A DNA stretch of 64,000 nt from Amia ocellicauda. Taxonomy: Eukaryota; Chordata; Actinopteri; Amiiformes; Amiidae. A program made the translations under genes and the position numbers. Shown piece after piece: positions 17,501-59,133 of this stretch. Every line of letters begins with the position of its first letter. The first letter of the stretch is position 1. The DNA is taken from contig NC_089851.1 in the NCBI RefSeq assembly GCF_036373705.1, positions 56,376,997 to 56,440,996 of the forward strand. The letters run 5' to 3'. Under the pieces are notes generated by a model. The model was not told the origin of the DNA. It was given only the letters and a program-made list of their open reading frames with translations, and did no database searches.

Positions 17501-18774
17501 CCACCCATCCATCTACCTATCTATGACTCTTGATATCTAACTCTCTTGCTTGCTATCGCTCCCCCAATGGTCAGTAGCATAGTAGCATAACAGCAGATCA
17601 CGGACCACTGTCAATCAGATGCTTGCCTTGCCGTCCATCCATCCATCCATCTATCTATCTATCTATGACTCTTGATATCTAACTCTCTTGCTTGATATCG
17701 CTCCCCCAATGGTCAGTAGCATAGTAGCATAACAGCAGATCTCGGACCACTGTCAATCAGATGCTTGCCTTGCCGTCCATCCATCCATCTATCTATCTAT
17801 CTATCTATGACTCTTGATATCTAACTCTCTTGCTTGCTATTGCTCCCCCAATGGTCAGTAGCATTGTAGCATAACAGCAGATCACGGACCAATGTCAATC
17901 AGATGCTTGCCTTGCCGTCCATCCATCCATCTATCTATCTATCTATCTATCAATGACTCTCGATATCTAACTCTCTTACTTGCTATCGCTCCCCCAATGG
18001 TCAGTAGCATAGTAGCATAACAGCAGATCACGGACCACTGTCAATCAGATGCTTGCCTTGCCGTCCATCCATCCATCTATCTATCTATCTATCTATCTAT
18101 GACTCTTGATATCTAACTCTCTTGCTTGCTATCGCTCCCCCAATGGTCAGTAGCATAGTAGCATAACAGCAGATCACGGACCACTGTCACTCAGATGCTT
18201 GCCTTGCCGTCCATCCATCCATCCATCTATCTATCTATCTATCAATGACTCTCGATATCTAACTCTCTTGCTTGCTATCGCTCCCCCAATGGTCAGTAGC
18301 ATAGTAGCATAACAGCAGATCACGGACCACTGTCAATCAGATGCTTGCCTTGCCGTCCATCCATCCATCTATCCATCTACCTATCTATGACTCTTGATAT
18401 CTAACTCTCTTGCTTGCTATCGCTCCCCCAATGGTCAGTAGCATAGTAGCATAACAGCAGATCACGGACCACTGTCAATCAGATGCTTGCCTTGCCGTCC
18501 ATCCATCCATCCATCTATCTATCAATCTATCAATGACTCTCGATATCTAACTCTCTTACTTGCTATCGCTCCCCCAATGGTCAGTAGCATAGTAGCATAA
18601 CAGCAGATCACGGACCACTGTCAATCAGATGCTTGCCTTGCCGTCCATCCATCCATCTATCCATCTACCTATCTATGACTCTTGATATCTAACTCTCTTG
18701 CTTGCTATCGCTCCCCCAATGGTCAGTAGCATAGTAGCATAACAGCAGATCTCGGACCACTGTCAATCAGATGC

Positions 18775-29280: not shown

Positions 29281-29578
29281 CCATCCATCCATCTATCTAT
29301 CAATCTATCAATGACTCTCGATATCTAACTCTCTTACTTGCTATCGCTCCCCCAATGGTCAGTAGCATAGTAGCATAACAGCAGATCACGGACCACTGTC
29401 AATCAGATGCTTGCCTTGCCGTCCATCCATCCATCCATCCATCTATCTATCTATCTATGACTCTCGATATCTAACTCTCTTACTTGCTTTCGCTCACCCA
29501 ATGGTCAGTAGCATAGTAGCATAACAGCAGATCACGGACCACTGTCAATCAGGTGCTTGCCTTGCCGTCCATCCATCC

Positions 29579-29580
<2 letters not shown>

Positions 29581-29660
<80 letters not shown>
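29581..29660 (+). repeat. Expanded (CTAT)20 microsatellite
   Basis: An uninterrupted run of 20 CTAT units inside one monomer; most monomers carry 2-6. The other strand reads (ATAG)n, that is, GATA repeats. It sits at the start of domain 2. Confidence 0.95.

Positions 29661-32338: not shown

Positions 32339-32340
<2 letters not shown>

Positions 32341-32408
<68 letters not shown>
32341..32408 (+). repeat. Expanded (CTAT)17 microsatellite
   Basis: Seventeen uninterrupted CTAT units in the same variant monomer context as the run at 29581, followed by the monomer with ATCACCGACC. It is the second copy of that segment with a different unit count. Confidence 0.95.

Positions 32409-37955: not shown

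Positions 37956-37957
<2 letters not shown>

Positions 37958-38041
<84 letters not shown>
37958..38041 (+). repeat. Expanded (CTAT)21 microsatellite
   Basis: Twenty-one uninterrupted CTAT units. Third copy of the segment also seen at 29581 and 32341, again followed by the ATCACCGACC monomer. Confidence 0.95.
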
Positions 38042-41000: not shown

Positions 41001-44000
41001 CTATCTATCTATCTATCTATGACTCTTGATATCTAACTCTCTTGCTTGCTATCGCTCCCCCAATGGTCAGTAGCATTGTAGCATAACAGCAGATCACGGA
41101 CCACTGTCAATCAGATGCTTGCCTTGCCGTCCATCCATCCATCTATCTATCTATCTATCTATCTATGACTCTCGATATCTAACTCTCTTGCTTGCTATCG
41201 CTCCCCCAATGGTCAGTAGCATAGTAGCATAACAGCAGATCACGGACCACTGTCAATCAGATGCTTGCCTTGCCGTCCATCCATCTATCTATCTATCTAT
41301 CTATGACTCTTGATATCTAACTCTCTTGCTTGCTATCGCTTCCCCAATGACAGTAGCATAGTAGCATAACAGCAGATCACGGACCACTGTCAATCAGATG
41401 CTTGCCTTGCCGTCCATCCATCCATCTCTCTATTTCTCTATCTATCTATGACTCTTGATATCTAACTCTCTTGCTTGCTATCGCTCCCCCAATGGTCAGT
41501 AGCATAGTAGCATAACAGCAGATCACGGACCACTGTCAATCAGATGCTTGCCTTGCCGTCCATCCATCCATCCATCTATCTATCTATCTATCTATGACTC
41601 TTGATATCTAACTCTCTTGCTTACAATCGCTCCCCCAATGGTCAGTAGCATAGTAGCATAACAGCAGATCACGGACCACTGTCAATCAGATGCTTGCCTT
41701 GCCGTCCATCCATCTATCTATCTATCTATCTATGACTCTTGATATCTAACTCTCTTGCTTGCTATCGCTCCCCCAATGGTCAGTAGCATAGTAGCATAAC
41801 AGCAGATCACGGACCACTGTCAATCAGATGCTTGCCTTGCCGTCCATCCATCCATCTATCTATCTATCTATCTATGACTCTTGATATCTAACTCTCTTGC
41901 TTGCTATCGCTCCCCCAATGGTCAGTAGCATAGTAGCATAACAGCAGATCACGGACCACTGTCAATCAGATGCTTGCCTTGCCGTCCATCCATCCATCTA
42001 TCTATCTATCTATCTATGACTCTTGATATCTAACTCTCTTGCTTGCTATCGCTCCCCCAATGGTCAGTAGCATTGTAGCATAACAGCAGATCACGGACCA
42101 CTGTCAATCAGATGCTTGCCTTGCCGTCCATCCATCCATCTATCTATCTATCTATCTATGACTCTCGATATCTAACTCTCTTGCTTGCTATCGCTCCCCC
42201 AATGGTCAGTAGCATAGTAGCATAACAGCAGATCACGGACCACTGTCAATCAGATGCTTGCCTTGCCGTCCATCCATCTATCTATCTATCTATCTATGAC
42301 TCTTGATATCTAACTCTCTTGCTTGCTATCGCTTCCCCAATGACAGTAGCATAGTAGCATAACAGCAGATCACGGACCACTGTCAATCAGATGCTTGCCT
42401 TGCCGTCCATCCATCCATCTATCTATCTATCTATCTATCTATCTATGACTCTTGATATCTAACTCTCTTGCTTGCTATCGCTCCCCCAATGGTCAGTAGC
42501 ATAGTAGCATAACAGCAGATCACGGACCACTGTCAATCAGATGCTTGCCTTGCCGTCCATCCATCCATCCATCTATCTATCTATCTATCTATGACTCTTG
42601 ATATCTAACTCTCTAGCTTGCTATCGCTCCCCCAATGGTCAGTAGCATAGTAGCATAACAGCAGATCACGGACCACTGTCAATCAGATGCTTGCCTTGCC
42701 GTCCATCTATCCATCCATCTATCTATCTATGACTCTTGATATCTAACTCTCTTGCTTGTTATCGCTCCCCCGATGGTAAGTAGCATAGTAGCATAACAGC
42801 AGATCACGGACCACTGTCAATCAGATGCTTGCCTTGCCGTCCATCCATCCATCTATCTATCTATCTATCTATGACTCTTGATATCTAACTCTCTTGCTTG
42901 CTATCGCTCCCCCAATGGTCAGTAGCATTGTAGCATAACAGCAGATCACGGACCACTGTCAATCAGATGCTTGCCTTGCCGTCCATCCATCCATCTATCT
43001 ATCTATCTATTTATGACTCTCGATATCTAACTCTCTTGCTTGCTATCGCTCCCCCAATGGTAGGTAGCATAGTAGCATAACAGCAGATCACGGACCACTG
43101 TCAATCAGATGCTTGCCTTGCCGTCCATCCATCCATCCATCTATCTATCTATCTATCTATCAATGACTCTCGATATCTAACTCTCTTGCTTGCTATCACT
43201 CCCCCAATGGTCAGTAGCATAGTAGCATAACAGCAGATCACGGACCACTGTCAATCAGATGCTTGCCTTGCCGTCCATCCATCTATCTATCTATCTATCT
43301 ATGACTCTTGATATCTAACTCTCTTGCTTGCTATCGCTCCCCCAATGGTCAGTAGCATAGTAGCATAACAGCAGATCACGGACCACTGTCAATCAGATGC
43401 TTGCCTTGCCGTCCATCCATCCATCTATCTATCTATCTATCTATGACTCTTGATATCTAACTCTCTTGCTTGCTATCGCTCCCCCAATGGTCAGTAGCAT
43501 TGTAGCATAACAGCAGATCACGGACCACTGTCAATCGGATGCTTGCCTTGCCGTCCATCCATCCATCTATCTATCTATCTATCTAAGACTCTTGATATCT
43601 AACTCTCTTGCTTGCTATCGCTCCCCCAATGGTCAGTAGCATAGTATCATAACAGCAGATCACGGACCACTGTCAATCAGATGCTTGCCTTGCCATCCAT
43701 CCATCCATCTATCTATCTATCAATCTATGACTCTTGATATCTAACTCTCTTGCTTGCTATCGCTCCCCCAATGGTCAGTAGCATTGTAGCATAACAGCAG
43801 ATCACGGACCACTGTCAATCAGATGCTTGCCTTGCCATCCATCCATCCATCTATCTATCTATCTATCTATGACTCTCGATATCTAACTCTCTTACTTGCT
43901 TTCGTTTACCCAATGGTCAGTAGCATAGTAGCATAACAGCAGATCACGGACCACTGTCAATCAGGTGCTTGCCTTGCCGTCCATCCATCCATCCATCTAT

Positions 44001-46166
44001 CTATCTATCTATCTATCAATGACTCTCGATATCTAACTCTCTTGCTTGCTATCGCTCCCCCAATGGTCAGTAGCATTGTAGCATAACAGCAGATCACGGA
44101 CCACTGTCAATCAGATGCTGGCCTTGCCGTCCTTCCATCCATCTATCTATCTATCTATCTTTGACTCTTGATATCTAACTCTCTTGCTTGCTATCGCTCC
44201 CCCAATGGTCAGTAGCATTGTAGCATAACAGCAGATCACGGACCACTGTCAATCGGATGCTTGCCTTGCCGTCCATCCATCCATCTATCTATCTATCTAT
44301 CTAAGACTCTTGATATCTAACTCTCTTGCTTGCTATCGCTCCCCCAATGGTCAGTAGCATAGTATCATAACAGCAGATCACGGACCACTGTCAATCAGAT
44401 GCTTGCCTTGCCATCCATCCATCCATCTATCTATCTATCAATCTATGACTCTTGATATCTAACTCTCTTGCTTGCTATCGCTCCCCCAATGGTCAGTAGC
44501 ATTGTAGCATAACAGCAGATCACGGACCACTGTCAATCAGATGCTTGCCTTGCCATCCATCCATCCATCTATCTATCTATCTATCTATGACTCTCGATAT
44601 CTAACTCTCTTACTTGCTTTCGTTTACCCAATGGTCAGTAGCATAGTAGCATAACAGCAGATCACGGACCACTGTCAATCAGGTGCTTGCCTTGCCGTCC
44701 ATCCATCCATCCATCTATCTATCTATCTATCTATCAATGACTCTCGATATCTAACTCTCTTGCTTGCTATCGCTCCCCCAATGGTCAGTAGCATTGTAGC
44801 ATAACAGCAGATCACGGACCACTGTCAATCAGATGCTGGCCTTGCCGTCCTTCCATCCATCTATCTATCTATCTATCTTTGACTCTTGATATCTAACTCT
44901 CTTGCTTGCTATCGCTCCCCCAATGGTCAGTAGCATTGTAGCATAACAGCAGATCACGGACCACTGTCAATCGGATGCTTGCCTTGCCGTCCATCCATCC
45001 ATCTATCTATCTATCTATCTAAGACTCTTGATATCTAACTCTCTTGCTTGCTATCGCTCCCCCAATGGTCAGTAGCATAGTATCATAACAGCAGATCACG
45101 GACCACTGTCAATCAGATGCTTGCCTTGCCGTCCATCCATCCATCTATCTATCTATCTATCTATCTATGACTCTTGATATCTAACTCTCTTACTTGCTTT
45201 CGCTCACCCAATGGTCAGTAGCATAGTAGCATAACAGCAGATCACGGACCACTGTCAATCAGATGCTTGCCTTGCCGTCCATCCATCCATCTATCTATCT
45301 ATCTATCTATGACTCTTGATATCTAACTCTCTTGCTTGCTATCGCTCCCCCATTGGTCAGTAGCATAGTAGCATAACAGCAGATCACGGACCACTGTCAA
45401 TCAGATGCTTGCCTTGCCGTCCATCCATCCATCTATCTATCTATCTATCTATGACTCTTGATATCTAACTCTCTTGCTTGCTATCGCTCCCCCAATGGTC
45501 AGTAGCATTGTAGCATAACAGCAGATCACGGACCCACTGTCAATCAGATGCTTGCCTTGCCGTCCATCCATCCATCTATCTATCTATCTATCTAAGACTC
45601 TTGATATCTAACTCTCTTGCTTGCTATCGCTCCCCCAATGGTCAGTAGCATAGTATCATAACAGCAGATCACGGACCACTGTCAATCAGATGCTTGCCTT
45701 GCCGTCCATCCATCCATCTATCTATCTATCTATCTATCTATGACTCTTGATATCTAACTCTCTTGCTTGCTATCGCTCCCCCAATGGTCAGTAGCATTGT
45801 AGCATAACAGCAGATCATGGACCACTGTCAATCAGATGCTTGCCTTGCCGTCCATCCATCCATCTATCTATCTATCTATCTATGACTCTTGATATCTAAC
45901 TCTCTTACTTGCTTTCAGTCACCCAATGGTCAGTAGCATAGTAGCATAACAGCAGATCACGGACCACTGTCAATCAGATGCTTGCCTTGCCGTCCATCCA
46001 TCCATCTATCTATCTATCTATCTATGACTCTTGATATCTAACTCTCTTGCTTGCTATCGCTCCCCCAATGGTCACGTATGTTGCATTCAATGACAAAGAA
46101 AATCATGTGCTGGAAATGATTTTTGGCAACTGTGAAGGAACTGCACGAGTGCAGTGACCACAACAC

Positions 46167-46240
46167 TTCTCTGTGGTGCAATCAGTCAGTGCGTTTGGCT
46201 GTTAAGTGAAAGGATGTTGGTTCGAATCCACCAAGGGACG
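46167..46240 (+). tRNA. tRNA-Asn(GTT)-like gene, probably degenerate, copy 1
   Basis: A 74-nt tRNA-shaped sequence. It has A-box-like TGGTGCAATCAGTCAGTG, a seven-base anticodon loop CTGTTAA with anticodon GTT at 46201-46203, a canonical B box GGTTCGAATCC, and a 3' acceptor half AAGGGAC. The overall sequence resembles vertebrate nuclear tRNA-Asn. The fold is damaged. Acceptor pairs 1-72 (T/C) and 7-66 (G/A) are broken, the anticodon stem TTTGG/GTGAA has one G/G mismatch and two wobble pairs, and the T stem has one mismatch. A TTTT Pol III stop follows 7 nt downstream. The promoter boxes look usable, but the product would probably fold poorly, so pseudogene is the safer reading. Confidence 0.72.
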
Positions 46241-46246
46241 GCCCAC

Positions 46247-46250
46247 TTTT
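46247..46250 (+). terminator. Pol III terminator after tRNA-Asn-like copy 1
   Basis: TTTT seven bases after the tRNA body, followed by a C-rich run. This is the usual RNA polymerase III stop signal at the usual distance. Confidence 0.55.
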
Positions 46251-46404
46251 CCCCCCGCCCCTTGTTATTGTTTCTACTTCTGGCGGTCAGCTTGCCAGAC
46301 TGCGGCTACAGTAACCTTAAGCTGCTTGCTGCGGACGGCCATCTTGCAAAAATGTATTGAGCGTTTAGAAACTTCCTTTCCATTGCCTAGGCCAACATAA
46401 ACCA

Positions 46405-46478
46405 AGGCACTGCTGGGAGTCGAACCCAGGGTTTCCTGTTTACAAGACAGGCGCTTTGACCAACTAAGCCACGGTGCC
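46405..46478 (-). tRNA. tRNA-Thr(TGT), copy 1
   Basis: Reads on the minus strand as a 74-nt cloverleaf. The acceptor stem is GGCACCG/CAGTGCC with one C/A mismatch. D stem GCTT/AAGC, anticodon stem CCTGT/ACAGG with loop CTTGTAA, and T stem CTGGG/CCCAG are all complete. The A box is TGGCTTAGTTGG and the B box is GGTTCGACTCC. The anticodon TGT (plus-strand ACA at 46442-46444) decodes ACA threonine codons. It differs from the neighbouring tRNA-Thr(AGT) at nine positions by my alignment. No CCA is encoded and there is no intron, as expected for a eukaryotic tRNA-Thr. The nearest T run downstream is TTTTT (plus-strand A's at 46348-46352), about 53 nt away, so a 3' trailer would be long. Confidence 0.85.
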
Positions 46479-46522
46479 AGGACTCTCCCATTCCCCAGTG
46501 CCTACACTCAGGCGTAAGGCAC

Positions 46523-46631
46523 AAAACAAAACAAAACAAAACAAAACAAAACAAAACAAAACAAAACAAAACAAAACAAAACAAAACAAAACAAAACAAA
46601 ACAAAACAAAACAAAACAAAACAAAACAAAA
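46523..46631 (+). repeat. (AAAAC)21 pentanucleotide microsatellite, copy 1
   Basis: Twenty-one perfect AAAAC units plus a partial unit. It creates the lysine/glutamine/asparagine-rich and Phe/Cys/Leu/Val-rich open frames in this region, which are not genes. Confidence 0.97.
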
Positions 46632-46917
46632 TCTGGATGCAGGCTGCAACAAAGGAAGCACACAGAGGTGAAAACGTAAGGTTGACGGGAGCAACAAGCT
46701 CCCTGTTGCGACTGTCCAGGGGCGGCAATGGGAATTGGACGTTGGCCGTAGCGCGTGTCCTTTGGGTTCTGGATCTTCTTTACAAACCGGCGTCTGTCCA
46801 GTTGGCTTTCCGGTTCATTACGTCCTCTGATGGCTTTACGATAAGCCTATCTTGCTAAAACTGATGGTCGACAAAGCGGAAGCACAAGCTTCGCAAGGAG
46901 CACAGAAAGCCGGCCTA

Positions 46918-46991
46918 AGGCACCGCTGGGATTTGAACCCAGGACCTCCTGTTTACTAGACAGGCGCTTTAACCAACTAAGCCACGGCGCC
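46918..46991 (-). tRNA. tRNA-Thr(AGT), copy 1, fully paired
   Basis: Reads on the minus strand as a 74-nt tRNA with every stem intact. Acceptor GGCGCCG/CGGTGCC has one G-T wobble. D stem GCTT/AAGC, anticodon stem CCTGT/ACAGG with loop CTAGTAA (anticodon AGT), and T stem CTGGG/CCCAG are complete. The A box is TGGCTTAGTTGG, the B box is GGTTCAAATCC, and the discriminator base is T. It closely matches the usual vertebrate tRNA-Thr(AGT), whose A34 is normally edited to inosine. The first T4 downstream is about 57 nt away (plus-strand A's at 46857-46860). This is the best candidate for a working RNA gene in the block. Confidence 0.92.
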
Positions 46992-47013
46992 AAATCTGCC
47001 TGTGCTGCTGCTG

Positions 47014-47087
47014 ATAGTAGAATAACAGCAGATCACGGACCACTGTCAATCAGATGCTTGCCTTGCCGTCCATCCATCCATCCATCC

Positions 47088-47169
<82 letters not shown>

Positions 47170-50100
47170 GACTCTTGATATCTAACTCTCTTGCTTGCTA
47201 TCGCTCCCCCAATGGTCAGTAGCATTGTAGCATAACAGCAGATCACGGACCAATGTCAATCAGATGCTTGCCTTGCCGTCCATCCATCCATCTATCTATC
47301 TATCTATCCATGACTCTCGATATCTAACTCTCTTGCTTGCTATCGCCCCCCCAATGGTCAGTAGCATAGTAGCATAACAGCAGATCACGGACCACTGTCA
47401 ATCAGATGCTTGCCTTGCCGTCCATCCATCCACCCATCCATCTACCTATCTATGACTCTTGATATCTAACTCTCTTGCTTGCTATCGCTCCCCCAATGGT
47501 CAGTAGCATAGTAGCATAACAGCAGATCACGGACCACTGTCAATCAGATGCTTGCCTTGCCGTCCATCCATCCATCCATCTATCTATCTATCTATCTATG
47601 ACTCTTGATATCTAACTCTCTTGCTTACAATCGCTCCCCCAATGGTCAGTAGCATAGTAGCATAACAGCAGATCACGGACCACTGTCAATCAGATGCTTG
47701 CCTTGCCGTCCATCCATCTATCTATCTATCTATCTATGACTCTTGATATCTAACTCTCTTGCTTGCTATCGCTCCCCCAATGGTCAGTAGCATAGTAGCA
47801 TAACAGCAGATCACGGACCACTGTCAATCAGATGCTTGCCTTGCCGTCCATCCATCCATCTATCTATCTATCTATCTATGACTCTTGATATCTAACTCTC
47901 TTGCTTGCTATCGCTCCCCCAATGGTCAGTAGCATAGTAGCATAACAGCAGATCACGGACCACTGTCAATCAGATGCTTGCCTTGCCGTCCATCCATCCA
48001 TCTCTCTATTTCTCTATCTATCTATGACTCTTGATATCTAACTCTCTTGCTTGCTATCGCTCCCCCAATGGTCAGTAGCATAGTAGCATAACAGCAGATC
48101 ACGGACCACTGTCAATCAGATGCTTGCCTTGCCGTCCATCCATCCATCCATCTATCTATCTATCTATCTATGACTCTTGATATCTAACTCTCTTGCTTAC
48201 AATCGCTCCCCCAATGGTCAGTAGCATAGTAGCATAACAGCAGATCACGGACCACTGTCAATCAGATGCTTGCCTTGCCGTCCATCCATCTATCTATCTA
48301 TCTATCTATGACTCTTGATATCTAACTCTCTTGCTTGCTATCGCTTCCCCAATGACAGTAGCATAGTAGCATAACAGCAGATCACGGACCACTGTCAATC
48401 AGATGCTTGCCTTGCCGTCCATCCATCCATCTATCTATCTATCTATCTATCTATGACTCTTGATATCTAACTCTCTTGCTTGCTATCGCTCCCCCAATGG
48501 TCAGTAGCATAGTAGCATAACAGCAGATCACGGACCACTGTCAATCAGATGCTTGCCTTGCCGTCCATCCATCCATCTATCTATCTATCTATCTATGACT
48601 CTTGATATCTAACTCTCTTGCTTGCTATCGCTCCCCCAATGGTCAGTAGCATAGTAGCATAACAGCAGATCACGGACCACTGTCAATCAGATGCTTGCCT
48701 TGCCGTCCATCCATCCATCTCTCTATTTCTCTATCTATCTATGACTCTTGATATCTAACTCTCTTGCTTGCTATCGCTCCCCCAATGGTCAGTAGCATAG
48801 TAGCATAACAGCAGATCACGGACCACTGTCAATCAGATGCTTGCCTTGCCGTCCATCCATCCATCCATCTATCTATCTATCTATCTATGACTCTTGATAT
48901 CTAACTCTCTTGCTTACAATCGCTCCCCCAATGGTCAGTAGCATAGTAGCATAACAGCAGATCACGGACCACTGTCAATCAGATGCTTGCCTTGCCGTCC
49001 ATCCATCTATCTATCTATCTATCTATGACTCTTGATATCTAACTCTCTTGCTTGCTATCGCTTCCCCAATGACAGTAGCATAGTAGCATAACAGCAGATC
49101 ACGGACCACTGTGAATCAGATGCTTGCCTTGCCGTCCATCCATCCATCTATCTATCTATCTATCTATCTATGACTCTTGATATCTAACTCTCTTGCTTGC
49201 TATCGCTCCCCCAATGGTCAGTAGCATAGTAGCATAACAGCAGATCACGGACCACTGTCAATCAGATGCTTGCCTTGCCGTCCATCCATCCATCCATCTA
49301 TCTATCTATCTATCTATGACTCTTGATATCTAACTCTCTAGCTTGCTATCGCTCCCCCAATGGTCAGTAGCATAGTAGCATAACAGCAGATCACGGACCA
49401 CTGTCAATCAGATGCTTGCCTTGCCGTCCATCTATCCATCCATCTATCTATCTATGACTCTTGATATCTAACTCTCTTGCTTGTTATCGCTCCCCCGATG
49501 GTAAGTAGCATAGTAGCATAACAGCAGATCACGGACCACTGTCAATCAGATGCTTGCCTTGCCGTCCATCCATCCATCTATCTATCTATCTATCTATGAC
49601 TCTCGATATCCTCTCTTGCTTGCTATCGCTCCCCCAATGGTCAGTAGCATAGTAGCATAACAGCAGATCACGGACCACTGTCAATCAGATGCTTGCCTTG
49701 CCGTCCATCCATCCATCTATCTATCTATCTATCTATGACTCTTGATATCTAACTCTCTTGCTTGCTATCGCTCCCCCAATGGTCAGTAGCATTGTAGCAT
49801 AACAGCAGATCACGGACCACTGTCAATCAGATGCTTGCCTTGCCGTCCATCCATCCATCTATCTATCTATCTATCTATCTATGACTCTCGATATCTAACT
49901 CTCTTGCTTGCTATCGCTCCCCCAATGGTCAGTAGCATAGTAGCATAACAGCAGATCACGGACCACTGTCAATCAGATGCTTGCCTTGCCGTCCATCCAT
50001 CTATCTATCTATCTATCTATGACTCTTGATATCTAACTCTCTTGCTTGCTATCGCTTCCCCAATGACAGTAGCATAGTAGCATAACAGCAGATCACGGAC

Positions 50101-51132
50101 CACTGTCAATCAGATGCTTGCCTTGCCGTCCATCCATCCATCTCTCTATTTCTCTATCTATCTATGACTCTTGATATCTAACTCTCTTGCTTGCTATCGC
50201 TCCCCCAATGGTCAGTAGCATAGTAGCATAACAGCAGATCACGGACCACTGTCAATCAGATGCTTGCCTTGCCGTCCATCCATCCATCCATCTATCTATC
50301 TATCTATCTATGACTCTTGATATCTAACTCTCTTGCTTACAATCGCTCCCCCAATGGTCAGTAGCATAGTAGCATAACAGCAGATCACGGACCACTGTCA
50401 ATCAGATGCTTGCCTTGCCGTCCATCCATCTATCTATCTATCTATCTATGACTCTTGATATCTAACTCTCTTGCTTGCTATCGCTCCCCCAATGGTCAGT
50501 AGCATAGTAGCATAACAGCAGATCACGGACCACTGTCAATCAGATGCTTGCCTTGCCGTCCATCCATCCATCTATCTATCTATCTATCTATGACTCTTGA
50601 TATCTAACTCTCTTGCTTGCTATCGCTCCCCCAATGGTCAGTAGCATAGTAGCATAACAGCAGATCACGGACCACTGTCAATCAGATGCTTGCCTTGCCG
50701 TCCATCCATCCATCTATCTATCTATCTATCTATGACTCTTGATATCTAACTCTCTTGCTTGCTATCGCTCCCCCAATGGTCAGTAGCATTGTAGCATAAC
50801 AGCAGATCACGGACCACTGTCAATCAGATGCTTGCCTTGCCGTCCATCCATCCATCTATCTATCTATCTATCTATGACTCTCGATATCTAACTCTCTTGC
50901 TTGCTATCGCTCCCCCAATGGTCAGTAGCATAGTAGCATAACAGCAGATCACGGACCACTGTCAATCAGATGCTTGCCTTGCCGTCCATCCATCTATCTA
51001 TCTATCTATCTATGACTCTTGATATCTAACTCTCTTGCTTGCTATCGCTTCCCCAATGACAGTAGCATAGTAGCATAACAGCAGATCACGGACCACTGTC
51101 AATCAGATGCTTGCCTTGCCGTCCATCCATCC

Positions 51133-51170
<38 letters not shown>

Positions 51171-53792
51171 GACTCTTGATATCTAACTCTCTTGCTTGCT
51201 ATCGCTCCCCCAATGGTCAGTAGCATAGTAGCATAACAGCAGATCACGGACCACTGTCAATCAGATGCTTGCCTTGCCGTCCATCCATCCATCCATCTAT
51301 CTATCTATCTATCTATGACTCTTGATATCTAACTCTCTAGCTTGCTATCGCTCCCCCAATGGTCAGTAGCATAGTAGCATAACAGCAGATCACGGACCAC
51401 TGTCAATCAGATGCTTGCCTTGCCGTCCATCTATCCATCCATCTATCTATCTATGACTCTTGATATCTAACTCTCTTGCTTGTTATCGCTCCCCCGATGG
51501 TAAGTAGCATAGTAGCATAACAGCAGATCACGGACCACTGTCAATCAGATGCTTGCCTTGCCGTCCATCCATCCATCTATCTATCTATCTATCTATGACT
51601 CTTGATATCTAACTCTCTTGCTTGCTATCGCTCCCCCAATGGTCAGTAGCATTGTAGCATAACAGCAGATCACGGACCACTGTCAATCAGATGCTTGCCT
51701 TGCCGTCCATCCATCCATCTATCTATCTATCTATTTATGACTCTCGATATCTAACTCTCTTGCTTGCTATCGCTCCCCCAATGGTAGGTAGCATAGTAGC
51801 ATAACAGCAGATCACGGACCACTGTCAATCAGATGCTTGCCTTGCCGTCCATCCATCCATCCATCTATCTATCTATCTATCTATCAATGACTCTCGATAT
51901 CTAACTCTCTTGCTTGCTATCACTCCCCCAATGGTCAGTAGCATAGTAGCATAACAGCAGATCACGGACCACTGTCAATCAGATGCTTGCCTTGCCGTCC
52001 ATCCATCTATCTATCTATCTATCTATGACTCTTGATATCTAACTCTCTTGCTTGCTATCGCTCCCCCAATGGTCAGTAGCATAGTAGCATAACAGCAGAT
52101 CACGGACCACTGTCAATCAGATGCTTGCCTTGCCGTCCATCCATCCATCTATCTATCTATCTATCTATGACTCTTGATATCTAACTCTCTTGCTTGCTAT
52201 CGCTCCCCCAATGGTCAGTAGCATTGTAGCATAACAGCAGATCACGGACCACTGTCAATCGGATGCTTGCCTTGCCGTCCATCCATCCATCTATCTATCT
52301 ATCTATCTAAGACTCTTGATATCTAACTCTCTTGCTTGCTATCGCTCCCCCAATGGTCAGTAGCATAGTATCATAACAGCAGATCACGGACCACTGTCAA
52401 TCAGATGCTTGCCTTGCCATCCATCCATCCATCTATCTATCTATCAATCTATGACTCTTGATATCTAACTCTCTTGCTTGCTATCGCTCCCCCAATGGTC
52501 AGTAGCATTGTAGCATAACAGCAGATCACGGACCACTGTCAATCAGATGCTTGCCTTGCCATCCATCCATCCATCTATCTATCTATCTATCTATGACTCT
52601 CGATATCTAACTCTCTTACTTGCTTTCGTTTACCCAATGGTCAGTAGCATAGTAGCATAACAGCAGATCACGGACCACTGTCAATCAGGTGCTTGCCTTG
52701 CCGTCCATCCATCCATCCATCTATCTATCTATCTATCTATCAATGACTCTCGATATCTAACTCTCTTGCTTGCTATCGCTCCCCCAATGGTCAGTAGCAT
52801 TGTAGCATAACAGCAGATCACGGACCACTGTCAATCAGATGCTGGCCTTGCCGTCCTTCCATCCATCTATCTATCTATCTATCTTTGACTCTTGATATCT
52901 AACTCTCTTGCTTGCTATCGCTCCCCCAATGGTCAGTAGCATTGTAGCATAACAGCAGATCACGGACCACTGTCAATCGGATGCTTGCCTTGCCGTCCAT
53001 CCATCCATCTATCTATCTATCTATCTAAGACTCTTGATATCTAACTCTCTTGCTTGCTATCGCTCCCCCAATGGTCAGTAGCATAGTATCATAACAGCAG
53101 ATCACGGACCACTGTCAATCAGATGCTTGCCTTGCCATCCATCCATCCATCTATCTATCTATCAATCTATGACTCTTGATATCTAACTCTCTTGCTTGCT
53201 ATCGCTCCCCCAATGGTCAGTAGCATTGTAGCATAACAGCAGATCACGGACCCACTGTCAATCAGATGCTTGCCTTGCCGTCCATCCATCCATCTATCTA
53301 TCTATCTATCTAAGACTCTTGATATCTAACTCTCTTGCTTGCTATCGCTCCCCCAATGGTCAGTAGCATAGTATCATAACAGCAGATCACGGACCACTGT
53401 CAATCAGATGCTTGCCTTGCCGTCCATCCATCCATCTATCTATCTATCTATCTATCTATGACTCTTGATATCTAACTCTCTTGCTTGCTATCGCTCCCCC
53501 AATGGTCAGTAGCATTGTAGCATAACAGCAGATCATGGACCACTGTCAATCAGATGCTTGCCTTGCCGTCCATCCATCCATCTATCTATCTATCTATCTA
53601 TGACTCTTGATATCTAACTCTCTTACTTGCTTTCAGTCACCCAATGGTCAGTAGCATAGTAGCATAACAGCAGATCACGGACCACTGTCAATCAGATGCT
53701 TGCCTTGCCGTCCATCCATCCATCTATCTATCTATCTATCTATGACTCTTGATATCTAACTCTCTTGCTTGCTATCGCTCCCCCAATGGTCA
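47014..53792 (+). repeat. Satellite array between tRNA blocks 1 and 2
   Basis: About 47 monomers of the same satellite in the same orientation as the left array. The first monomer resumes mid-unit at ATAGTAGAATAACAGC, then a 20-unit CTAT run. The variant order from about 47.57 kb repeats that from about 39.56 kb, including the GCTTACAATCGC, CTCTAGCTTGC, CCCGATGGTAAG and TGCTGGCCTTGCC monomers. It ends at the same core position (GGTCA) where the second tRNA block begins. Confidence 0.95.
47090..47169 (+). repeat. Expanded (CTAT)20 beside tRNA block 1
   Basis: Twenty CTAT units preceded by five CCAT units, in the first monomer to the right of the tRNA block. Confidence 0.95.
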
Positions 53793-53884
53793 CGTATGTT
53801 GCATTCAATGACAAAGAAAATCATGTGCTGGAAATGATTTTTGGCAACTGTGAAGGAACTGCACGAGTGCAGTGACCACAACAC

Positions 53885-53958
53885 CTCTCTGTGGTGCAAT
53901 CAGTCAGTGCGTTTGGCTGTTAAGTGAAAGGATGTTGGTTCGAATCCACCAAGGGACG
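53885..53958 (+). tRNA. tRNA-Asn(GTT)-like gene, probably degenerate, copy 2
   Basis: Identical to copy 1 except that the first base is C instead of T; neither restores the 1-72 pair with C. Anticodon GTT is at 53919-53921 and the B box GGTTCGAATCC is intact. The anticodon stem is weakened by one G/G mismatch and two wobble pairs, and there are mismatches in the acceptor and T stems. A Pol III TTTT follows at 53965-53968. Probably a pseudogene. Confidence 0.72.
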
Positions 53959-53964
53959 GCCCAC

Positions 53965-53968
53965 TTTT
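53965..53968 (+). terminator. Pol III terminator after tRNA-Asn-like copy 2
   Basis: TTTT seven bases beyond the tRNA body, as in copy 1. Confidence 0.55.
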
Positions 53969-54122
53969 CCCCCCGCCCCTTGTTATTGTTTCTACTTCTG
54001 GCGGTCAGCTTGCCAGACTGCGGCTACAGTAACCTTAAGCTGCTTGCTGCGGACGGCCATCTTGCAAAAATGTATTGAGCGTTTAGAAACTTCCTTTCCA
54101 TTGCCTAGGCCAACATAAACCA

Positions 54123-54196
54123 AGGCACTGCTGGGAGTCGAACCCAGGGTTTCCTGTTTACAAGACAGGCGCTTTGACCAACTAAGCCACGGTGCC
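54123..54196 (-). tRNA. tRNA-Thr(TGT), copy 2
   Basis: Identical to the 46405 copy. It is a 74-nt minus-strand cloverleaf with anticodon TGT (plus-strand ACA at 54160-54162), full D, anticodon and T stems, one C/A mismatch in the acceptor stem, and B box GGTTCGACTCC. The nearest downstream T run is TTTTT (plus-strand A's at 54066-54070). Confidence 0.85.
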
Positions 54197-54240
54197 AGGA
54201 CTCTCCCATTCCCCAGTGCCTACACTCAGGCGTAAGGCAC

Positions 54241-54369
54241 AAAACAAAACAAAACAAAACAAAACAAAACAAAACAAAACAAAACAAAACAAAACAAAAC
54301 AAAACAAAACAAAACAAAACAAAACAAAACAAAACAAAACAAAACAAAACAAAACAAAACAAAACAAAA
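54241..54369 (+). repeat. (AAAAC)25 pentanucleotide microsatellite, copy 2
   Basis: Twenty-five AAAAC units plus a partial unit, against twenty-one in copy 1. This accounts for the whole 20-bp length difference between the two blocks. Confidence 0.97.
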
Positions 54370-54655
54370 TCTGGATGCAGGCTGCAACAAAGGAAGCACA
54401 CAGAGGTGAAAACGTAAGGTTGACGGGAGCAACAAGCTCCCTGTTGCGACTGTCCAGGGGCGGCAATGGGAATTGGACGTTGGCCGTAGCGCGTGTCCTT
54501 TGGGTTCTGGATCTTCTTTACAAACCGGCGTCTGTCCAGTTGGCTTTCCGGTTCATTACGTCCTCTGATGGCTTTACGATAAGCCTATCTTGCTAAAACT
54601 GATGGTCGACAAAGCGGAAGCACAAGCTTCGCAAGGAGCACAGAAAGCCGGCCTA

Positions 54656-54729
54656 AGGCACCGCTGGGATTTGAACCCAGGACCTCCTGTTTACTAGACA
54701 GGCGCTTTAACCAACTAAGCCACGGCGCC
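54656..54729 (-). tRNA. tRNA-Thr(AGT), copy 2, fully paired
   Basis: Identical to the 46918 copy. It is a 74-nt minus-strand tRNA with all four stems paired, loop CTAGTAA giving anticodon AGT, and B box GGTTCAAATCC. Having two identical, structurally intact copies about 7.7 kb apart fits either a functional repeated gene or a very recent duplication. Confidence 0.92.
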
Positions 54730-54751
54730 AAATCTGCCTGTGCTGCTGCTG

Positions 54752-54817
54752 ATAGTAGAATAACAGCAGATCACGGACCACTGTCAATCAGATGCTTGCC
54801 TTGCCGTCCATCCATCC

Positions 54818-54911
<94 letters not shown>

Positions 54912-57900
54912 GACTCTTGATATCTAACTCTCTTGCTTGCTATCGCTCCCCCAATGGTCAGTAGCATTGTAGCATAACAGCAGATCACGGACCAATGTCA
55001 ATCAGATGCTTGCCTTGCCGTCCATCCATCCATCTATCTATCTATCTATCCATGACTCTCGATATCTAACTCTCTTGCTTGCTATCGCCCCCCCAATGGT
55101 CAGTAGCATAGTAGCATAACAGCAGATCACGGACCACTGTCAATCAGATGCTTGCCTTGCCGTCCATCCATCCACCCATCCATCTACCTATCTATGACTC
55201 TTGATATCTAACTCTCTTGCTTGCTATCGCTCCCCCAATGGTCAGTAGCATAGTAGCATAACAGCAGATCACGGACCACTGTCAATCAGATGCTTGCCTT
55301 GCCGTCCATCCATCCATCTATCTATCTATCTATCTATGACTCTTGATATCTAACTCTCTGGCTTGCTATCGCTCCCCCAATGGTCAGTAGCATAGTAGCA
55401 TAACAGCAGATCACGGACCACTGTCACTCAGATGCTTGCCTTGCCGTCCATCCATCCATCCATCTATCTATCTATCTATCAATGACTCTCGATATCTAAC
55501 TCTCTTGCTTGCTATCGCTCCCCCAATGGTCAGTAGCATAGTAGCATAACAGCAGATCACGGACCACTGTCAATCAGATGCTTGCCTTGCCGTCCATCCA
55601 TCCATCTATCTATCTATCTATCTATGACTCTTGATATCTAACTCTCTTGCTTGCTATCGCCCCCCCAATGGTCAGTAGCATAGTAGCATAACAGCAGATC
55701 ACGGACCACTGTCAATCAGATGCTTGCCTTGCCGTCCATCCATCCATCCATCTATCTATCAATCTATCAATGACTCTCGATATCTAACTCTCTTACTTGC
55801 TATCGCTCCCCCAATGGTCAGTAGCATAGTAGCATAACAGCAGATCACGGACCACTGTCAATCAGATGCTTGCCTTGCCGTCCATCCATCCATCCATCTA
55901 TCTATCTATCTATCAATGACTCTCGATATCTAACTCTCTTACTTGCTATCGCTCCCCCAATGGTCAGTAGCATAGTAGCATAACAGCAGATCACGGACCA
56001 CTGTCAATCAGATGCTTGCCTTGCCGTCCATCCATCCATCTATCTATCTATCTATCTATGACTCTTGATATCTAACTCTCTTGCTTGCTATCGCCCCCCC
56101 AATGGTCAGTAGCATAGTAGCATAACAGCAGATCACGGACCACTGTCAATCAGATGCTTGCCTTGCCGTCCATCCATTCATCCATCTATCTATCAATCTA
56201 TCAATGACTCTCGATATCTAACTCTCTTACTTGCTATCGCTCCCCCAATGGTCAGTAGCATAGTAGCATAACAGCAGATCACGGACCACTGTCAATCAGA
56301 TGCTTGCCTTGCCGTCCATCCATCCATCTATCTATCTATCTATCTATGACTCTTGATATCTAACTCTCTGGCTTGCTATCGCTCCCCCAATGGTCAGTAG
56401 CATAGTAGCATAACAGCAGATCACGGACCACTGTCACTCAGATGCTTGCCTTGCCGTCCATCCATCCATCCATCTATCTATCTATCTATCAATGACTCTC
56501 GATATCTAACTCTCTTGCTTGCTATCGCTCCCCCAATGGTCAGTAGCATAGTAGCATAACAGCAGATCACGGACCACTGTCAATCAGATGCTTGCCTTGC
56601 CGTCCATCCATCCATCTATCTATCTATCTATCTATGACTCTTGATATCTAACTCTCTTGCTTGCTATCGCCCCCCCAATGGTCAGTAGCATAGTAGCATA
56701 ACAGCAGATCACGGACCACTGTCAATCAGATGCTTGCCTTGCCGTCCATCCATCCATCCATCTATCTATCAATCTATCAATGACTCTCGATATCTAACTC
56801 TCTTACTTGCTATCGCTCCCCCAATGGTCAGTAGCATAGTAGCATAACAGCAGATCACGGACCACTGTCAATCAGATGCTTGCCTTGCCGTCCATCCATC
56901 CATCCATCTATCTATCTATCTATCAATGACTCTCGATATCTAACTCTCTTGCTTGCTATCACTCCCCCAATGGTCAGTAGCATAGTAGCATAACAGCAGA
57001 TCACGGACCACTGTCACTCAGATGCTTGCCTTGCCGTCCATCCATCCATCCATCTATCTATCTATCTATCAATGACTCTCGATATCTAACTCTCTTGCTT
57101 GCTATCGCTCCCCCAATGGTCAGTAGCATAGTAGCATAACAGCAGATCACGGACCACTGTCAATCAGATGCTTGCCTTGCCGTCCATCCATCCATCTATC
57201 TATCTATCTATGACTCTTGATATCTAACTCTCTTGCTTGCTATCGCTCCCCCAATGGTCAGTAGCATTGTAGCATAACAGCAGATCACGGACCACTGTCA
57301 ATCAGATGCTTGCCTTGCCGTCCATCCATTCATCCATCCATCTATCTATCTATCTATCAATGACTCTCGATATCTAACTCTCTTACTTGCTATCGCTCCC
57401 CCAATGGTCAGTAGCATAGTAGCATAACAGCAGATCACGGACCACTGTCAATCAGATGCTTGCCTTGCCGTCCATCCATCTATCTATCTATCTATCTATC
57501 TATGACTCTCGATATCTAACTCTCTTGCTTGCTATCGCTCCCCCAATGGTCAGTAGCATAGTAGCATAACAGCAGATCACGGACCACTGTCACTCAGATG
57601 CTTGCCTTGCCGTCCATCCATCCATCCATCTATCTATCTATCTATCAATGACTCTCGATATCTAACTCTCTTGCTTGCTATCGCTCCCCCAATGGTCAGT
57701 AGCATAGTAGCATAACAGCAGATCACGGACCACTGTCAATCAGATGCTTGCCTTGCCGTCCATCCATCCATCTATCTATCTATCTATCTATCTATGACTC
57801 TCGATATCTAACTCACTTGCTTGCTATCGCTCCCCCAATGGTCAGTAGCATAGTAGCATAACAGCAGATCACGGACCACTGTCAATCAGATGCTTGCCTT

Positions 57901-58140
57901 GCCGTCCATCCATCCATCTATCTATCTATCTATCTATGACTCTTGATATCTAACTCACTTGCTTGCTATCGCTCCCCCAATGGTCAGTAGCATTGTAGCA
58001 TAACAGCAGATCACGGACCACTGTCAATCAGATGCTTGCCTTGCCGTCCATCCATCCATCTATCTATCTATCTAGCTAGCTATCTATCTATGACTCTCGA
58101 TATCTAACTCTCTTGCTTGCTGTCGCTCCCCCAATGGTCA
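54752..58140 (+). repeat. Satellite array, right-hand segment (return to domain-1 type)
   Basis: About 24 monomers. The first few match those right of block 1. From about 55.3 kb the monomers are again of domain-1 type: ATCAATGACTCTCG, CACTCAG and CAATCTATCAATG classes, with added CGCCCCCCC and CTCTGGCTTGC variants. A unit of about 1.0 kb recurs, with CTCTGG near 55.36 and 56.37 kb. The last monomers are more irregular (CTAGCTAGC in the tract, GCTGTCGC in the core), as expected at an array edge. The array ends at GGTCA (58140), where the third tRNA block starts, and no monomer was seen beyond it. Confidence 0.94.
54820..54911 (+). repeat. Expanded (CTAT)23 beside tRNA block 2
   Basis: Twenty-three CTAT units, the longest run in the window, in the first monomer right of tRNA block 2. 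It corresponds to the (CTAT)20 at 47090. Confidence 0.95.
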
Positions 58141-58240
58141 CGTATGTTGCATTCAACGACAAAGAAAATCGTGTGCTGGAAATGATTTTTGGCAACTGTG
58201 AAGGAACTGCACGACTGCAGCAACCACAACACCTCTGTCT

Positions 58241-58314
58241 GTGTCTGTGGCGCAATCGGTCAGCGTGTTTGGCTGTTAACCAAAAGGATTGTGGTTTGAT
58301 TCCACCCAGGGACG
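58241..58314 (+). tRNA. tRNA-Asn(GTT)-like gene, copy 3, better folded
   Basis: A 74-nt sequence close to vertebrate tRNA-Asn. D stem is GCGC/GCGT. The anticodon stem TTTGG/CCAAA is fully paired, with loop CTGTTAA and anticodon GTT at 58275-58277. The 3' acceptor half is CAGGGAC and the discriminator is G. Defects are a G/G clash at acceptor pair 3-70, one mismatched T-stem pair, and a B box altered to GGTTTGATTCC. Pol III TTTT lies at 58321-58324. Compared with copies 1 and 2 it keeps the anticodon and acceptor arms but has a worse B box, so each lineage lost different parts. Function is uncertain. Confidence 0.75.
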
Positions 58315-58320
58315 GCCCAC

Positions 58321-58324
58321 TTTT
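58321..58324 (+). terminator. Pol III terminator after tRNA-Asn-like copy 3
   Basis: TTTT six bases after the tRNA body, then a C run, matching copies 1 and 2. Confidence 0.55.
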
Positions 58325-58478
58325 CCCCCCGCCCCTTGTTATTGTTTCTACTTCTGGCGGTCAGCTTGCCAGACTGCGGCTACAGTAACCTTAAGCTGCT
58401 TGCTGCGGACGGCTATCTTGCAAAAATGTATTGAGCGTTTAGAAACTTCCTTTCCATTGCCTAGGCCAACATAAACCA

Positions 58479-58552
58479 AGGCACTGCTGGGCGTCGAACC
58501 CAGGGTTTCCTGTTTACAAGGCAGGCACTTTGACCAACTAAGCCACGGTGCC
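58479..58552 (-). tRNA. tRNA-Thr(TGT)-like, copy 3, slightly degenerate
   Basis: A minus-strand 74-nt tRNA-Thr with loop CTTGTAA (anticodon TGT). Compared with copies 1 and 2, the D stem gains a G-T wobble (GCTT/AAGT), the anticodon stem CCTGC/ACAGG has a C/A mismatch, and the T loop reads TTCGACG. The acceptor stem keeps the same C/A mismatch. It is probably decaying, though recognisable. Confidence 0.72.
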
Positions 58553-58602
58553 AGGACTCTCCCATTCTCCAGTACCTACACCCAGGCGTAAGAAACAAAA
58601 CA

Positions 58603-59133
58603 ACTGCTTGAGGCAGACCCTCACCTGATCACCACATGTGGTTACACTTTAAGAAGGGGTGAGTTTAAGGTCATCGGTAACATCACAAAGGTTGGCAGCA
58701 TTTTACATGAATATGTAAAGTAAAAAACACACACTACATGTAAATAAGCCATAATACTTGTTTAGTGTATGTAAGCTCGTTCTGTAATCATACATCATCC
58801 ATACTAGTATTTAATAATTGAATTAACTATACACAACCTACTTGCTCAATTCACTCTTGTTACCGTGTAATTACAGTGCAAGTAAATTGTAATAATTGTA
58901 GCTTTGTATATTGGGCCATATTTTACATGTAACTATATATTTCATATTTGTCCAATTAATGTACATTTGTCTTTGTTTTTTTTAGCTGGTACCAAAACAT
59001 TGGTCTCTGGAACTAAAAGGTCGGAAATTGGAAGAACTATTAATGACAAATGAATGACCGCTGATACAAGTAAATAGTGTTTCCTCAAATCTAAAGTGAG
59101 ACCTTTTTGAATGAATCTGTAATACATGCCCTA
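58603..59133. other. Non-satellite AT-rich flank, no gene assigned
   Basis: The first DNA beyond the array. It is AT-rich, with no long open frame and no repeat that I recognise. The only gene-like signal is the possible 3' splice site described separately. It ends at the left terminus of a Tc1-like element. Confidence 0.6.
58986..59056 (+). other. Possible terminal exon after a splice-acceptor-like site (weak)
   Basis: A pyrimidine-rich stretch (CTTTGTTTTTTTTAG, ending at 58985) looks like a 3' splice site. The sequence after it is open for about 22 codons in two frames: one starts AGTKTLVSGTKRSEIGRT and ends at TGA, the other starts LVPKHWSLELKGRK and also ends at TGA. Neither is a family I recognise, and no upstream exon or poly(A) signal could be tied to it. 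It may well be chance. Confidence 0.15.

Follow-up and report, generated by a model that had tools for sequence, protein, structure and literature searches.

A tRNA-Asn/Thr/Thr module as a putative higher-order unit of a satellite array in Amia ocellicauda

Satellite array and tRNA blocks

The window, a stretch of 64,000 nucleotides of A. ocellicauda DNA, contains a satellite array that extends over positions 1..58140 on the + strand, with a monomer of ~142–146 bp that consists of an ATCT-rich tail and a core of ~115 bp; 390 monomer starts were counted in this array, representing 123 distinct strings. Three blocks carrying tRNA genes, all read on the + strand, adjoin the satellite: blocks 1 (46075..47015) and 2 (53793..54753) are complete, with the left joint GGTCA/CGTATG and the right joint GAT/AGTAGAATAAC, and block 3 (58141..58603), with the same left joint, is truncated at an (ACAAA)n tract at the array edge. 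The same satellite base precedes all three blocks (AATGGTCAC has exactly three occurrences in the window, AATGGTCAG has 367) and the right end common to the two complete blocks is found exactly twice (AGTAGAATAACAG), in agreement with the preliminary description of this DNA, in which all three blocks begin after one monomer base and the two complete blocks end at one place. Blocks 1 and 2 differ by one substitution and four ACAAA units and, apart from this microsatellite, are 99.9% alike; the microsatellite within block 1 is (ACAAA)22 (46521..46631, + strand). The homology of block 3 to blocks 1 and 2 ends at (ACAAA)n and is followed by non-satellite DNA; since this block forms the edge of the array, it has no right satellite joint.

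The tRNA genes of the window were called with ARAGORN and Rfam. Block 1 contains tRNA-Thr(TGT) (46405..46478, − strand, 68.7 bits) and tRNA-Thr(AGT) (46918..46991, − strand, 71.5 bits), and block 2 contains the same pair at 54123..54196 (− strand, 68.7 bits) and 54656..54729 (− strand, 71.5 bits). A decayed tRNA-Asn is also present in block 2 (53885..53958, + strand), where it scores 26.7 bits, under the Rfam threshold of 29, and its A box was not found; the copy in block 1 differs from it at the first base only and is likewise under the threshold. Block 3 carries tRNA-Asn(GTT) (58240..58317, + strand, 55.5 bits), with a T4 terminator at +7, and a partly decayed tRNA-Thr(TGT) (58479..58552, − strand, 56.1 bits). 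When the five gene forms of the window were scored against box patterns that we take to be the standard ones, the A box was found in four and the B box (with at most one mismatch) in all five, and T4 terminators were found at +7 (Asn) and at +53 and +58 (Thr). Scoring was extended to 14 of 57 loci, in which 107 tRNA matches include 19 Asn copies at 73.1 bits and recurrent Thr types at 71.5 and 68.7 bits. By these scores many copies outside the window look intact: the fold is preserved in many copies of the 14 loci, and boxes and terminators are present in the forms of the window, the tRNA-Asn of block 2 being the failing case.

Tandem duplication of blocks 1 and 2

Blocks 1 and 2 lie in a tandem duplication of ~8 kb on the + strand, the copies of which (39421..47565 and 47424..55307) each consist of satellite, one block and the first monomers to the right of it, with a breakpoint within or beside monomer 47424/55166. 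Taken in order, 36 of 44 flanking monomers are identical between the two copies, compared with a maximum of 10 in 220 control windows, and the monomer content of the copies is unequal (46 versus 44). In a plain alignment of the satellite at blocks 1 and 2, the best alignment ends at 45071 (98.2%) and not at the left joint of block 1 (95.5%), which is put down to gains and losses of monomers that the ordered comparison tolerates. Because of their near-identical sequence and the single tandem duplication in which they lie, blocks 1 and 2 cannot be counted as two separate observations. The preliminary claim that the identical junctions within the window suffice as proof therefore does not hold, as two of the three blocks represent one recent duplication and the third represents the array edge.

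Copies and joints in the genome

Genome-wide (988 Mb), there are 635 matches to the left joint (24-mer, at most two mismatches) and 18,522 to the satellite core, with no match to the reversed-pattern control in either case, so that the further junction copies that had been proposed as a check are indeed present in the assembly. The spacer between tRNA-Asn and tRNA-Thr(TGT) was found 623 times, which is close to the count of the left joint, as would be expected if the module is almost always attached to this joint. Among the matches listed (at most 100 per search), every joint lies at 51–60 Mb of contig C2, a large chromosome-scale sequence; these searches cover one module family, and a Thr-AGT array is also present on C26. 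The 41 best-scored block matches, at 86–100% identity, are spread across ~8 Mb, on both strands and in differing contexts. In the loci examined, blocks recur every 1–4 kb inside arrays, with a spacing of 1–3 kb in several of them, and arrays composed of a block and a few monomers were found on C2 at 52.06 and 51.41 Mb.

In the loci read base by base, which were picked from search matches and are not a random sample, the left joint was read from BLAST matches starting at most 4 bases from the block end. Its position does not vary among the 47 copies, 46 of which are exact and one of which (L017) has two substitutions at the same place, and the adjoining monomer has a single orientation relative to the block at all 47 joints. 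Five copies at 51.058–51.069 Mb of C2 have a non-satellite left flank.

For the right joint, Thr-AGT matches of at least 91% identity and at least 60 bases were kept. The main right joint, which shows no target duplication, was read in 42 of 45 copies, and its 30-mer has 228 matches (at most two mismatches; control 0). In the other three copies (L017, L020 and L021) the module continues instead into a tRNA cluster of greater length: at L017 it is followed by tRNAs for Leu, Asp and Ala, and at L020 and L021, the sequences of which contain N runs, by tRNAs for Asp and Ala. At a second right joint, represented by L030, GGTCA stands to the left and GGTAA to the right; this 5-base near-repeat is read as a probable monomer variant, and within the window GGTAAGTAGC is also found in ordinary monomers as a variant, for example near 49500. 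There is one left joint and there are several right ends.

The DNA behind Thr-AGT of the edge loci was found at 16 places, ten on C2 and six elsewhere. A satellite-free founder was sought in five of the six places off C2, none of which has a BLAST match to the block or the satellite. Among these five, ARAGORN found tRNA-Ser at L053 and tRNAs for Leu, Ser and Asp at L055, and no tRNA in the remaining three, the sequences of which contain N runs. The block had no match among plasmids, and the satellite 33-mer had none among viral contigs and prokaryote genomes, as is expected for an animal sequence.

Divergence and diversity of the module

Among 38 full-length blocks, the divergence is 0.0067 within arrays (43 pairs) and 0.0243 between arrays (660 pairs; label-permutation p = 0.0005), so that units of one array are more alike than units of different arrays.

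Diversity was estimated from 68 aligned pieces of more than 300 bases each, 37 of them full. Purifying selection on the tRNA genes relative to the spacers was sought by this measure in the block copies and was not found: π is 0.058, 0.033 and 0.034 in the three tRNA genes, whereas the left arm and two spacers have 0.020–0.025 and the 42 bp that follow Thr-TGT have 0.028. Pooled, the values are 0.041 for genes and 0.022 for spacers, an excess that lies mostly at CpG-prone sites; without these sites they become 0.0207 and 0.0140, and the higher diversity in genes is then not significant (permutation p = 0.08). The idea of an adaptive amplification of the tRNA genes finds no support here, as their diversity is not below that of the spacers.

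Discussion

Focusing on the constant left joint, the right joint common to most copies, the genome-wide counts and the tandem duplication, the tRNA-Asn/Thr/Thr module is, as far as sequence patterns can tell, a higher-order unit of the satellite and is copied with it. A multi-monomer unit is repeated as a whole both in the duplication of the window and in the arrays at 52.06 and 51.41 Mb of C2. The preliminary description had already made the tRNA genes part of such a unit, and the invariant left position, the recurrence in arrays and the lower divergence within arrays speak for it. With a probability of about 0.85, satellite-driven co-amplification by unequal exchange and segmental duplication would explain the tRNA blocks. 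The module, with tRNA-Asn in one direction and tRNA-Thr(TGT) and tRNA-Thr(AGT) in the other, would have come to adjoin the satellite once, giving the left joint. A further recombination event, which joined the DNA just past Thr-AGT to a satellite monomer at two shared bases (AT), may then have produced the main right joint and so enclosed the module within the satellite array. In-register unequal exchange between monomers, together with larger segmental duplications, would have copied the module in higher-order units of ~1 kb to several kb until it reached ~600 copies, the listed places of which lie at 51–60 Mb of C2. That the left joint came first, and that unequal exchange was the mechanism, is what we infer from the pattern. 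Most of the copies are probably carried along passively, homogenisation keeping them young, and some may act, by analogy, as a high-copy source of tRNA, perhaps in the oocyte or early embryo.

Independent insertion or transposition, by a tRNA-derived SINE or by integration targeted to a favoured site within the monomer, could also place blocks at a single monomer position, and the GGTCA/GGTAA pair of the L030 type could be taken for a target duplication of 5 bases, one of them mismatched. However, the left position does not vary in any copy read, the predominant right joint has no duplication, the complete three-gene module is carried together with its spacers, blocks are most alike within one array, the monomer beside the block keeps its orientation, and the sequence at the near-repeat is also that of a plain monomer. 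This explanation is hardly credible, and a transposed element or SINE was rejected, as target duplications and scattered sites were not found in the copies read save for the L030-type near-repeat. Different junctions with target duplications had been named beforehand as signs of transposition; read by eye, other right ends do exist, whereas the left joint is constant and the main right joint is without a duplication. An assembly artefact, in which haplotype copies or collapsed repeats were placed in tandem, would account for the near identity of blocks 1 and 2 apart from the microsatellite, but it is very improbable given the unequal monomer content of the duplication copies and the range of identities, strands, distances and contexts of the best-scored matches. 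Insulator or boundary elements bound by Pol III/TFIIIC and placed in heterochromatin are suggested by the boxes of the window gene forms and by the one block of three that lies at an array edge; this role is improbable, since blocks also recur at short intervals inside the arrays examined.

The direction of the events might also be reversed, with the satellite arising out of the sequence 5′ to the module, GGTCA/CGTATG being original and GGTCA/GTAGC derived. All classes of right end share the left joint, the monomer phase stops exactly at the module, L033 has merely (TATC)n and half a monomer to the left of the module, and L029 and L032 retain 26 bp of monomer beside the module with no other satellite in the stretch examined. 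However, the left flank of L029 and L032 results from fusion to a DUF6729 element of dispersed occurrence, of which six other copies diverge at that very base, and the candidate in which these two loci preserve the native left joint and the satellite is derived was dropped for this reason. Continuity is thus not demonstrated by them, and the 26 bp may be a remnant of satellite. We regard the reversed direction as unlikely, if deserving of mention.

Selection may have acted on copy number if the arrays supply maternal tRNA to the oocyte and early embryo like zebrafish chromosome 4, which we consider a tentative and rather unlikely reading. In the available text of PMC11417395, zebrafish egg isodecoders originate in highly repetitive regions, whereas the late isodecoders are encoded by isolated genes, and Thr-AGT, Thr-TGT and Thr-CGT are among the families named as switching. 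The satellite Thr-AGT class is moreover distinct from the canonical form on C20, and the scores of the recurrent Asn and Thr copies and the boxes of the window forms also speak for this reading. On the other side, diversity is not reduced in the tRNA genes, the tRNA-Asn of blocks 1 and 2 is decayed, and the best 47 of 47,274 first-look 5S rRNA candidates lie on C8 and small contigs and none on C2, whereas zebrafish Chr4R has 5S; in the accessible part of PMC11574265, most predicted zebrafish tRNA genes are without accessible chromatin in the embryo. By the same analogy, it is conceivable, if doubtful, that the satellite serves as the amplification engine of a distinct isodecoder set (Asn, Thr-TGT/CGT/AGT) used in oocytes and early embryos, with unequal exchange setting the maternal supply. 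By inference, ~600 modules would correspond to over a thousand tRNA genes.

Comparison with known systems

The nearest precedent, the long arm of zebrafish chromosome 4 (Chr4R), is described in the portions available of PMC11075544, PMC11417395 and PMC11574265 as heterochromatin with most of the tRNA genes and with maternal 5S and snRNA genes. As in the Amia arrays, very many repeated tRNA genes lie among repeats in one chromosome region, and the Thr isoacceptors of zebrafish have repetitive (early) and isolated (late) classes. In contrast, the Amia genes, known here from their sequence, sit in a defined satellite, to which they are joined at a fixed point on the left and at a mostly fixed one on the right, and none of the best-scored 47 5S genes is on C2. 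In the complex satellite DNAs of Harttia catfish, as excerpted from PMC11955569, derivatives of tRNA genes, SINEs and LINEs are intermingled; unlike these tRNA-derived pieces, the tRNA genes in Amia are whole and in many cases apparently intact, with as many as three to a block, and form an occasional insert in a short-monomer satellite. The Arabidopsis SYY tRNA cluster also has tandemly duplicated tRNA genes that extend into constitutive heterochromatin and is silenced in most tissues; its cluster core is tandemly duplicated, and the abstract and outline name no satellite host (PMC12308677). The rye subtelomeric satellites pSc200 and pSc250, according to the available text of PMC4857426, likewise expand along with adjacent DNA, although their neighbours are transposable elements and not RNA genes. 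Teleost tRNA clusters can reach fifty or more genes, with 65% of the tDNAs clustered in zebrafish and 87% in stickleback; hosting by a satellite, as in Amia, is absent from the passages seen of PMC2888827. No report of three tRNA genes that together form a higher-order unit of a satellite was found among open-access titles and abstract openings, and the available parts of PMC5041008 and PMC12191414 contain nothing on point.

The Amia module, recognisable by its diagnostic joints, represents a clean case in which satellite turnover has multiplied RNA genes that look functional. It suggests that 'junk' DNA can carry genes along and so raise their copy number, a possible route to the huge and rapidly changing tRNA gene numbers of fishes. 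The satellite Thr-AGT class (GAGGTCC, TTCAAATCC) differs from the canonical class on C20 (GAGATCC, TTCGAATCC) at two positions of a 38-mer, so that use (for example as maternal tRNA) and silence of the satellite-borne genes could be distinguished by tRNA-seq. The canonical 38-mer has three exact copies, on C20, and 22 of its 28 matches with at most one mismatch form an array on C26.

Structure of the array and its tRNA-bearing blocks

Within the genome of 988,188,214 bases in 385 contigs, the window (C2:56376997-56440996) opens with a single satellite array on the + strand (1-58140; monomer 142-146 bp), which is broken by a tRNA-bearing block at 46075 and at 53793 and closed by a truncated block at 58141, and beyond which a Tc1-like element (Pfam HTH_Tnp_Tc3_2 and DDE_3) and other repeats extend to 64000. 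To judge by the kinds of repeats, the host is probably a ray-finned fish. As the preliminary description had stated, the three blocks begin after the same monomer base (left joint GGTCA-CGTATG): the joint AATGGTCAC occurs three times in the window and the plain satellite at this position, AATGGTCAG, 367 times. Its statement that the two complete blocks (46075-47015 and 53793-54753, blocks 1 and 2) end at the same place also holds, with both at GAT-AGTAGAATAACAG. Its picture of three embedded copies is retained for the common left joint and not for the number of events. Blocks 1 and 2 differ by one substitution and four ACAAA units, and of the 46 and 44 monomers flanking them 36 are identical with their order kept, compared with a maximum of 10 in 220 control windows outside 38.4-54.8 kb. 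This match indicates a single tandem duplication, so that the two blocks represent one event. To their left, the preferred end of a plain BLAST alignment of the satellite is at 45071 (98.2%) and not at the block 1 joint (95.5%), a difference that we attribute to the gain and loss of monomers. To their right, the same monomers continue up to 47565/55307 before diverging, and a long ATCT tract is of unequal length in otherwise matching monomers. Such tracts comprise about 20-26 units in five monomers of the window (29571-29660, 32331-32408, 37948-38041, 47072-47169 and 54810-54911), two of which directly adjoin blocks on their right, and about eight in the others. Block 3 (58141-58603), which aligns to block 1 with 430 matches, 25 mismatches and 13 gap columns, forms the edge of the satellite array. 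This edge is found again, next to the same outside DNA, at two other loci of the assembly, L019 (919 bp, 99.3%) and L040 (654 bp, 98.8%), and array edges have therefore also been duplicated.

Distribution in the genome

The search of the assembly for further junction copies found the left joint (24-mer, ≤2 mismatches) 454 + 181 = 635 times, the main right joint (30-mer, ≤2 mismatches) 166 + 62 = 228 times, the Asn-Thr spacer (29-mer) 443 + 180 = 623 times and the satellite core (42-mer) 11,908 + 6,614 = 18,522 times, with 0 matches genome-wide for each reversed-pattern control. Among the matches listed for these patterns and for a 31-mer search, all lie on C2 at 51.06-60.33 Mb of 63.57 Mb, as do all 41 BLAST matches (40 of 667 candidates scored). 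ARAGORN called 137 tRNA genes in 20 loci of about 9.9 kb selected from the matches; taking about two to three per block, the blocks would hold over a thousand.

Joints at other loci and spread of the blocks

The left joint was exact in 46 of the 47 copies read, and in L017 it lies at the same place with two substitutions. The right joint GAT-AGTAG(A/C)ATA was found in 42 of 45 Thr-AGT copies, including L026, where a Tc1-like element follows it. The other three (L017, L020 and L021) pass into other tRNA-bearing DNA, with Asp and Ala genes in each and a further Leu gene in L017; this DNA reads ..GCTGAT-GGTCTT.. in L017 and L021 and is shortened in L020, and comparison with satellite ..AGCAT-AGTAG.. 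shows that the two sequences share AT at the right joint. A second right joint, GACGTT-AGGTAAGTAGC, ends blocks that lack Thr-AGT and carry a Thr anticodon CGT, in arrays with units of roughly 1.3-1.6 kb (C2 51.41 and 52.06 Mb); GGTAAGTAGC is also present in the window as a plain monomer variant. L022 holds another cluster/satellite joint. Since one left joint goes with several right ends, the left joint is probably the older.

Differing junctions with target duplications had been named as the mark of transposition. The left joint is constant in 47 copies; the right ends do vary, and blocks with the second right joint are flanked by GGTCA (left) and GGTAA (right), a five-base near-repeat. The proposal that the tRNA genes are copied with the satellite is supported: divergence between blocks is 0.0067 within the same array versus 0.0243 between different arrays (38 full blocks, p 0.0005). 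Taken together, this homogeneity, the tandem duplication seen in the window and the edges shared between loci fit a spread by unequal exchange plus segmental duplication.

A non-satellite left flank of the module occurs in exactly five copies (C2 51.058-51.069 Mb), which keep 26 bp of monomer beyond which lies a DUF6729-bearing element. Six other copies of this element (C1, two on C6, C11, C18 and C25) diverge at the same base; the flank is thus a fusion, and was rejected as proof that the module's flank produced the satellite. There, L029 (C2:51057000-51061900) carries the joint four times at a spacing of 1399 bp, the two units compared being identical. In this unit the initial ~100 bp of the tRNA block are fused with a DUF6729 exon and with a stretch that weakly resembles virus packaging ATPases (Pfam Pox_A32 at E 0.0023 and Adeno_IVa2 at E 0.002, neither reaching the cut-off).

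DNA known from behind Thr-AGT in edge loci was also seen in L053 (C1:69900-72000), L055 (C18, near the contig end), L054, L056 and L057, all close to contig ends or on small contigs. It lies beside tRNA-Ser in L053, which also holds TTAGGG-like repeats, and beside Leu, Ser and Asp tRNAs in L055; no tRNA was called in L054, L056 and L057, the sequences of which contain N runs.

State of the tRNA genes

In 14 loci, 107 tRNA matches passed the Rfam threshold, with 19 Asn copies at 73.1 bits and recurrent Thr-AGT and Thr-TGT forms at 71.5 and 68.7 bits. The block 2 Asn scores 26.7 bits and that of block 1, which differs in its first base, is likewise under threshold; block 3 scores 55.5 (Asn) and 56.1 bits (Thr-TGT). 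Blocks 2 and 3 differ at 12 of 74 sites in Asn versus 12 of 380 elsewhere (Fisher p 8e-5). By box patterns, the A box is absent solely from the block 2 Asn among five gene forms of the window that were examined, and the terminators are at +7 in Asn, +53 in Thr-TGT and +58 in Thr-AGT.

Across 68 aligned pieces, the genes show a diversity of 0.058 (Asn), 0.033 (Thr-TGT) and 0.034 (Thr-AGT). The left arm has 0.025, the two spacers have 0.024 and 0.020, and the 42 bp that follow Thr-TGT have 0.028. As gene diversity is not below that of flanks and spacers, these pieces give no sign of purifying selection on the tRNA genes. The excess lies mainly at CpG-prone sites (genes 0.0207 versus 0.0140 without them, p 0.08), a decay which suggests that the DNA may be methylated. 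In L013 and L014 (C2:52565000-52584800), four low-scoring Asn copies (47-50 bits) have the anticodon ATT for GTT, and in L030, L031, L036 and L037 the Thr gene adjoining Asn has CGT, not TGT, an anticodon switch within the amplified module.

Relation to known systems

Arrays of tRNA genes in fish heterochromatin are already known. Satellites containing tRNA-derived sequences have been described from fish (PMC11955569), and the expansion of tandem repeats along with neighbouring DNA is also on record (PMC4857426). Searches of an open-access literature library listed no report of entire tRNA genes making up a higher-order unit of a satellite, with fixed joints and on such a scale.

In zebrafish, the isodecoders of eggs originate in highly repetitive parts of the genome and the late isodecoders in isolated genes, Thr-AGT/TGT/CGT being a named case of this early/late switch (PMC11417395), and Chr4R has been discussed as a maternal block (PMC11075544). 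By analogy, satellite-borne tRNA genes might serve as a maternal supply, which is a testable idea. The 5S rRNA genes speak against the parallel, as none of the 47 that were scored (the best 47 of 47,274 first-look candidates) lies on C2. Many of these 47 lie on one strand over about 2.4 Mb at G000:C8:7377066-9811919, with more copies on small contigs. At two positions of a 38-mer the satellite Thr-AGT differs from the canonical gene, which has three exact copies on C20; of the 28 matches at ≤1 mismatch, 22 lie in an array on C26, two more on C20 and one on C2. The C26 array (G000:C26:3980270-4147002) is a second tRNA array, and its 22 genes resembling Thr-AGT belong to an intermediate isodecoder and occupy a single strand across 167 kb.
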